A stretch of 64,000 nt of DNA. It comes from Filimonas sp. Lineage in GTDB: Bacteria > Bacteroidota > Bacteroidia > Chitinophagales > Chitinophagaceae. Positions 5,923-55,946 of this stretch are shown piece by piece. Location: assembly GCA_017306865.1 (NCBI GenBank), contig JAFKHH010000018.1:124001-188000 (forward strand), in the 5' to 3' direction. How positions within the stretch are numbered: position 1 is the first letter of the stretch; each line of letters starts with the position of its first letter. Below the pieces are notes generated by a model that worked only from the letters and a program-made list of their open reading frames with translations, was not told the origin of the DNA and did no database searches. A program made the translations under genes and the position numbers.

Positions 5923-6075
5923 TGAATTGCTGAATGGTTATATGGTTGCATTGTTGTCGCTGCGCGACTGGTTCACCGCAGAGACGGGGAGTGCGGAGAG
6001 TTGCGCGGAGATGTATTTTTTATACTTTAAATATGCTATAAACTTATATACCTTATAAACTTTATAAACTCATTA
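5923..6075. repeat. Intergenic short-period repeats before queA
   Basis: No gene is visible here. The left part has the ATTGCTGAATGG / ATGGTTGCATTGTTG motif that recurs at many gene ends in this window. The middle resembles the CGCAGAG/GCGGAGA repeats common in Bacteroidota intergenic DNA. From about 6020 to 6072 the sequence is a 9-10 base periodic AT-rich run (TTATATACC, TTATAAACT, TTATAAACTC). The same class of run occurs near 9541, 9950 and 55860-55940. Confidence 0.5.
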
Positions 6076-9522: not shown

Positions 9523-9548
9523 GGTTTGTTTATAGGGTTTATAAGTAT

Positions 9549-9952
9549 ATAGGGTATCATTGTTGTCCGACTAAAATTTATTTGCTTATTCGATTGTAAG
9601 CTTTCATTTGTCTACCGACGGTGTTACTTTTTGTCTTGATACCAAAAGTAACCAAAAAAATCAAGGCTCCAGAAAAGCAGGCTAAAAATTATCACGCCCG
9701 CCGAAATCCATTGAACTCGCCGCTTACAGCATGAGTAAGTTAGTTACGCCTGGCTCAAACAGCAATGGATTTTTCCGGCGTTCATGACAATTTTTTTAAC
9801 GCAGCTTTTCTGAGGCCGCACGTTTCTCTTTAAAAGCTGACCGGGGAAACTCCCCTGATTTTGAAACTATTCTTTTTCGTCTATAATCCTTTCTAGGAAA
9901 GGTTTACAGACAACTATCCATTAACTTTAGTCGGACAATAATAATAGGGTAT
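9549..9952. mobile_element. 386-bp MITE-like element with TIRs and 9-bp target duplication
   Basis: An 18-base inverted repeat with two mismatches bounds 9558-9943: left CATTGTTGTCCGACTAAA, right the complement of TATTATTGTCCGACTAAA. The direct repeat ATAGGGTAT abuts both ends (9549-9557 and 9944-9952), as expected for a 9-bp target-site duplication. No open reading frame of note lies inside. The interior has a long imperfect inverted repeat (arms about 9673-9713 and 9763-9809, both with AATCCATTG/CAATGGATT and CCGGCG-like cores) and a shorter one (GTTACTTTT / AAAAGTAAC). This fits a non-autonomous transposon mobilised by an IS that makes 9-bp duplications. The IS family is not identified. 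Confidence 0.75.
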
Positions 9953-10008
9953 ATAAAGTGGAATAGTTCACCTTATATACCCTATATACTTTACATACCT
10001 TACACACC
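9944..10008. repeat. AT-rich palindromic repeat interrupted by the element
   Basis: Right of the element, TAGGGTATATAAAGTG pairs with CACCTTATATACCCTA across a short loop, followed by TATACTTTACATACC. Joining it to 9525-9557 across one copy of ATAGGGTAT rebuilds a continuous repeat resembling the one at 55850-55940. The gap from 9523 to 10014 holds only this repeat and the inserted element. Confidence 0.55.
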
Positions 10009-26811: not shown

Positions 26812-27013
26812 TACTCGCCCTGGTTCGTGTTGCGCTGTTCGACATGTTAGCGAAGCGCATGTCGAACTATAGATAAAGCAGATTTTAATTTGCTTATAAT
26901 AAAGGGATTACTCGCCCTGGTTCGTGTCTTCACGAACCAGTTACCTACCGGCGCGTGGAGACACGCGCCGGGGCCAGGAGCTATTCGACATGCGCTTCGC
27001 TAACATGTCGAAC
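26812..27013. repeat. Cluster of nested palindromes
   Basis: This non-coding stretch holds two oppositely oriented copies of a 29-base unit built on TTCGACATG ... CATGTCGAA with an inner TTAGCGAAGCG (26838-26866 and 26984-27012, exact reverse complements). It also holds two direct copies of TACTCGCCCTGGTTCGTGT (26812-26830 and 26909-26927). Two more hairpins are present: CTGGTTCGTG-TCTT-CACGAACCAG (26917-26940) and CCGGCGCGTG-GAGA-CACGCGCCGG (26948-26971). The whole gap 26725-27041 carries no gene. Confidence 0.8.
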
Positions 27014-27041
27014 AGCAATAAATATATCGAACAGCAACAGA

Positions 27042-55845: not shown

Positions 55846-55946
55846 GAATAAGTATATAGCGTTTATAAGGTATATAAAGCAATATAGCGGTTGTACACTT
55901 TTACATACTATATAAACCATATATACCTTATATACTTTACCCCACC
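55846..55946. repeat. AT-rich palindromic repeat
   Basis: The left half (AAGTATATAGCGTTTATAAG then GTATATAAAG) and right half (CTATATAAACC, TATATACCTTATATACTTTA) form an imperfect inverted repeat with a 9-10 base internal period. It is the same family as the target interrupted by the element at 9558-9943 and as 6020-6072. Confidence 0.6.

Follow-up and report, generated by a model that had tools for sequence, protein, structure and literature searches.

An IS4-family MITE of Filimonas and its conserved structured module, which probably acts as RNA

MITEs are usually taken to be functionless remnants. MITECca01 of Cardinium, for instance, has been described as an IS remnant with more than 100 copies (PMC9769881). 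The element described here shares with bacterial IS MITEs such as MITECca01 a short form without ORFs, terminal inverted repeats, target duplications, a known parental IS and a copy number that probably exceeds 100. In contrast to MITECca01, its interior is a selected structured module found across a phylum, and the parent IS is missing from the genome (PMC9769881). REP/RAYT elements, which bear GTAG/CGTC tags, are likewise chromosomal repeats with hairpins (PMC3733652), but the present element has DDE-type ends and no association with a Y1 transposase.

The module itself has its counterparts among structured RNAs. Telomerase RNA and SAM-II are H-type pseudoknots with a major-groove triple helix. 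The SAM-V riboswitch is built in the same way, and both its topology and its U.A-U / C+.G-C code are shared by the fold predicted for the module (PMC6061858). Unlike triple-helix pseudoknots such as SAM-V, however, the module is repeated many times per genome and has no known ligand or gene association. Type III antitoxin RNAs such as CptI also contain a pseudoknot, which in the module is a predicted one, but no toxin gene was recognised beside the module, and each element holds a single unit (PMC4627078). Flavo-1 RNA (RF01705), a structured RNA of Bacteroidota, has a different structure, and its match lies outside the element. This match, at L036:1635-1710 on the minus strand, is below threshold (36 bits against a gathering score of 42) and adjoins an element bearing the core. 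The core had no match in Rfam at E up to 0.5-1, either in the window or in 17 related loci. No description of the core sequence or of such repeats was found in the open-access papers searched; subscription journals could hold one.

The window, the whole stretch of 64,000 nucleotides that was analysed, spans positions 124001-188000 of its contig in a Filimonas genome of 6.15 Mb and 42 contigs. The gene-less element at 9558-9943 and its surroundings consist of the following parts, with the strand given where one applies:

9543-9991: AT-rich palindrome split by the insertion (arms 22/23 complementary once rejoined)
9549-9557: left copy of the target duplication, ATAGGGTAT
9558-9575, plus strand: left terminal inverted repeat, CATTGTTGTCCGACTAAA, with the same ends as IS4-family elements of related genera
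9576-9612: left arm, variable among copies (16% divergence)
9623-9634: first arm of pseudoknot stem 1, GTTACTTTTTGT as plus-strand sequence
9635-9640: loop CTTGAT, which pairs with 9660-9665 (stem 2)
9641-9652: second arm of stem 1, with one mismatch in the window copy (A to C at 9643)
9653-9659: connecting strand CAAAAAA (UUUUUUG on the minus strand), which tracks stem 1 base by base and is the proposed third strand
9660-9665: ATCAAG, second half of stem 2
9665-9694: first side of helix P1/P2, with conserved GGCTAAAAAT
9700-9719: first arm of hairpin P3 and conserved AACTCG
9720-9751: apical part of P3, variable among copies (18%)
9752-9779: conserved GGCTCAAACAG and second arm of P3
9786-9817: second side of helix P2/P1, consensus CAATTTTCTTAACGC...GAGGCC
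9818-9925: right arm, variable among copies (22-28%)
9926-9943, minus strand: right terminal inverted repeat, TATTATTGTCCGACTAAA in reverse complement
9944-9952: right copy of the 9-bp target duplication, ATAGGGTAT

The preliminary description had recognised here a 386-bp non-coding element with facing 18-bp terminal inverted repeats and a 9-bp target duplication, and each of these features was confirmed. The element overlaps no ORF of at least 60 aa, the terminal repeats are near-identical (16/18 identical, 13 exact), and the duplication borders both ends in exact copies. The claim that removal of the element restores an AT-rich palindrome was also borne out. When the element and one copy of ATAGGGTAT are taken out, the flanks rejoin as a palindrome whose arms are complementary at 22 of 23 positions, indicating that the insertion is real. 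AT-rich intergenic palindromes of the TATATAGGGTATATAAAG type recur in the window (9543-9557 with 9953-9991; 6044-6074 with 55847-55877) and may form a separate repeat family. The interior had been described as long imperfect inverted repeats without an open frame. The inverted repeats are indeed present, but this account is incomplete, as they constitute a conserved module that is under selection and occurs phylum-wide.

The possibility that the element has no other copy can clearly be set aside. At least 40 matches were found in the same genome, about 40 of them at 83-94% identity over 240-386 bp. A first look gave 123-134 candidate copies, and the 11 strong core matches in 400 kb of another contig scale to roughly 170 per genome. 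The number of copies is well over 40 and probably lies between 120 and 170. Most full-length copies have their own AT-rich 9-bp duplication. Among the 29 copies whose 9-bp flank pairs differ at no more than three positions, the duplication is exact in 11 and has one mismatch in 9 (20/29 in all), and a few of the 29 may be spurious because chance pairs reach three or fewer mismatches in 12% of cases. No second genome of the genus was among the genomes searched.

An IS with matching ends is present in other genera of the family. These elements of 1.41 kb (L206, L216, L221, L202) share the ends of the MITE and are bordered by AT-rich 9-bp duplications that are exact or nearly so, and their transposase belongs to the IS4 family (NCBIfam NF033592, E=4e-63; Pfam DUF4372 and DDE_Tnp_1). 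The identification of the element as a MITE, as first proposed, is thus supported by many dispersed copies with duplications of their own and by an IS of related genera with matching ends and the same 9-bp duplication; the parent of the MITE is an IS4-family insertion sequence. The MITE shares with this family (NCBIfam NF033592, PF01609 with PF14294) the ends CAYTRTTGTCCGACTAAA and the 9-bp AT-rich duplications, but it lacks a transposase, and its interior is unrelated to the IS. PF01609 (DDE_Tnp_1) had no match in the Filimonas genome, so the MITE family looks stranded there. Its spread in this lineage may date from a time when a matching transposase was available; judging from the absence of that enzyme, the family would now be immobile in this genome. 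In other genera, core-free MITEs of about 140-180 bp carry these ends. Four of them (L200, L220, L209 and L225; 141-179 bp) have 9-bp duplications, and those at L200 and L220 contain a GC-rich hairpin, CCCTCTCC...GGAGAGGG. Among the loci read in other genera, the core was never found within the same terminal ends. The genomes that share the terminal repeats have the IS and core-free MITEs, and the cores read in them are located elsewhere, so that the pairing of these ends with the module appears to be lineage-specific.

A REP-like element that depends on a RAYT (Y1) transposase would also be chromosomal, multi-copy and palindromic. Nevertheless, such an origin is extremely improbable in view of the DDE-type ends and the 9-bp duplications, and it is refuted for this genome, in which four Y1_Tnp genes have neither the core nor the element ends nearby. 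These Y1 (RAYT-like) transposase genes (L186-L189) have different hairpin repeats of their own alongside.

Among 41 copies of the MITE, divergence from the consensus is 1.3% in the pseudoknot and about 1-3% in most stem segments, whereas the apical loop reaches 18% and the terminal repeats and arms 15-28%. Because some arms come from different subfamilies, the divergence of the arms partly predates insertion. The target duplications serve as a clock that is free of this problem. The two copies of a duplication differ at 11.9% of sites, which amounts to about 6% of change in each copy after insertion, and the pseudoknots of the 29 clocked copies contain 2 changes in 1247 sites compared with 74 expected, one polymorphic position having been left out of the count. 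When only pairs with two or fewer mismatches are considered, the expectation falls by arithmetic to roughly 45, and the conclusion is unchanged. The difference between 2 and 74 changes indicates strong purifying selection on the module once it has been inserted, in a genome that has no transposase. Since each inserted module hardly changes, the module apparently serves some purpose in the cell, and it would be the cell, not the transposase, that keeps it intact. Here the part required for transposition decays, while the internal fold is conserved site after site. It could be argued that this is an ordinary, functionless MITE whose interior is uniform owing to a recent burst or gene conversion, given that the copies are paralogues in one genome and that MITE bursts are common. 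The duplication clock contradicts this, with target duplications that have diverged by about 12%. Moreover, conserved and variable stretches alternate every 15-40 bp, following the stems and loops, and compensatory changes accompany the conservation of the module across the phylum. This explanation is therefore very improbable.

The structured module, at 9623-9819, combines an H-type pseudoknot with covarying helices. In hits that were gathered by sequence and had passed a filter of 5/10 pairs, 98% of the cells of stem 1 (ACTTTTTGT/ACAAAAAGT and variants) hold Watson-Crick pairs. The six-base loop covaries with its partner (CTTGAT-ATCAAG, CTTGAC-GTCAAG and CTTGAA-TTCAAG), and the module thus has two interleaved helices with covariation, as does triple-helix pseudoknot RNA. 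The connecting strand follows stem 1 by a base rule that holds in a single register only (T-A 404/407, internal C-G 18/18, G-A or G-G 59/59, a constant C at the base of the stem being excluded). Loci gathered on stem 1 alone in two pattern searches, including genera new to the set, have the predicted G at the predicted place; one such locus has an insertion in the connecting strand, and further cases of a predicted G were recognised by eye. The proposed third strand thus obeys a triplex code along the duplex. Read on the minus strand, the rule corresponds to the U.A-U / C+.G-C code, in which the third strand runs parallel to the purine arm, and the triple helix itself is predicted for this strand from the sequence pattern.

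The remaining helices are specific to their own partners. Pairing of P2 gives -9.5 kcal/mol with its own partner and -5.5 with swapped ones, and that of P3 gives -10.0 and -3.1, respectively (0/2000 permutations). Folding of the minus-strand RNA with a tool that does not predict pseudoknots yielded z = -5.3. On this strand the module, about 200 nt long, would form a long hairpin (P1/P2/P3) followed by the H-type pseudoknot. The U-rich strand of the pseudoknot would occupy the major groove of the A-U-rich stem, giving a U.A-U / C+.G-C triple helix. As the base rule is simple, mutations could test this triple helix. The Filimonas genome also has a second family of pseudoknots, with a ACTTTCTTTTT stem followed by a different conserved hairpin, CCCGATCGCTCCGCGCG, in place of P1/P2/P3; its loci are L062:887, L089:10933, L090:19340, L281, L284, L286, L288 and L290.

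The core extends far beyond Filimonas. A scan of genome contigs with a 26-base core pattern found at least 90 stretches, for which the titled records listed were almost all from Bacteroidota; a few bins of Delongbacteria, Chlorobi and Margulisbacteria, and some that bore no taxon name, were also among the matches listed. Of 296 Bacteroidota genomes sampled, at least 85 proved to contain the core, often in many copies, under a sequence-only model, as did at least 43 of 140 genera; both figures are lower bounds owing to filters and the small number of candidates scored. Deeper scoring recovered it in 11 of 16 genomes of the same family. In plasmids, phages and viral contigs, the whole element had no match, and the core query returned only two weak partial matches to Prevotella plasmids and one viral contig. 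The elements that contain the pseudoknot have ends of at least four unrelated kinds:

Ends AACGTGAGTTTTGGG: 275-278 bp, with 4-5-bp duplications
Ends AGAGATGGTCAATTGT: 383 bp, with an 11-bp duplication
Ends CTAATTCTTATTTT: 345 bp, with an 11-bp duplication, at one locus
Ends CTGAYATTGCCCATA: 326 bp, with a 9-10-bp duplication, at one locus

In Arcicella, Emticicia and Flectobacillus, the core is found in short elements with inverted ends and no clear duplication, and it also occurs in tandem arrays. One such array, in Kaistella antarctica (L119:1845-3656), comprises about five units of 356 bp, each with the pseudoknot and a long form of the module, and similar arrays are present at L263, L260, L261 and L262. 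Several multi-copy cores (L258-L260, L264, L266 and L267) are situated between variable-island genes that resemble polysaccharide synthesis or DNA methyltransferase clusters.

The functional strand is quite likely the minus strand. Where basal pairs of the folded copy are Watson-Crick, wobble changes number 34 on the minus strand and 3 on the plus strand, by an author's count in which inherited changes are counted repeatedly. The orientation of codirectional neighbours is weakly biased in the same direction (75 for the minus strand versus 47), and the pyrimidine triplex code fits the minus strand. Wobble in stem 1 was rejected as strand evidence because it is too rare on either strand, and its rarity cuts against RNA, since a DNA-level structure would give the same result. 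A scan for sigma-70 promoters found none around the element. The constraint on the core is equal whatever the direction of the neighbouring genes, with 2.0-3.0 changes per copy in 148, divergent sites included. This equality makes a simple 3'-UTR model less convincing and leaves room for a DNA-level role; a purely cis 3'-UTR role was rejected because the constraint is independent of gene orientation. On the whole, a structured RNA on the minus strand is the reading adopted, with moderate confidence. A structured RNA appears to be the most likely function of the module, and action as RNA rather than DNA is likely.

The module might instead be a DNA structure, such as a hairpin, cruciform or intramolecular triplex, that provides a chromosomal protein with binding sites scattered over the chromosome. 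The near-absence of wobble pairs from stem 1, the independence from gene context, the near-absence of the core from plasmids, phages and viral contigs and the weak orientation bias all speak for such a structure, and the base rule also suits a purine-motif DNA triplex on the other strand. However, the basal-pair wobble changes favour one strand, a long multi-helix architecture, with bulges and apical motifs that are conserved, is what RNA typically shows, and no partner protein was identified, so that a DNA structure seems rather unlikely. A small RNA acting in trans, or an RNA sponge, produced from many loci would be consistent with the high copy number and with a constraint independent of neighbours. 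Redundant copies should, however, tolerate single losses, whereas nearly every copy is constrained, and the sigma-70 scan revealed no promoter; this role is improbable.

If the module acts as a structured RNA, its compact fold could resist degradation or passage in transcripts that run through it, and it might act as a stabiliser of mRNA 3' ends or be a processed small RNA. A role at 3' ends or in stability can be proposed only tentatively, and a stabilising or insulating role is weakly suggested. Transcription termination has also to be considered, as the minus-strand hairpin is immediately followed by a U-rich tract. The module forms that were read contain the hairpin and TTGATTTTTTT, and there is a mild excess of genes reading in from the hairpin side. 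Yet divergent sites are equally constrained, and termination needs no primary sequence conserved across a phylum. Termination before the pseudoknot is contradicted by the covariation of the pseudoknot, which must therefore be made. A terminator is thus decidedly improbable.

On balance, it is fairly probable that the element is an IS4-family MITE with a structured module that is kept by the cell and acts as RNA. The chances are even that the module is an undescribed mobile structured RNA of the whole phylum, composed of a triple-helix pseudoknot and a hairpin, carried by unrelated MITEs to up to hundreds of sites per chromosome and selected at nearly every site. If so, unrelated transposons would have repeatedly distributed one functional RNA part; confirmation would establish a structural part of RNA (or DNA) that transposons have spread widely. 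Elsewhere in the window, a perfect 33-bp inverted repeat (GCTGTTCGACATG...) is located at 26834-26866 and 26984-27016, with its two halves 117 bp apart.
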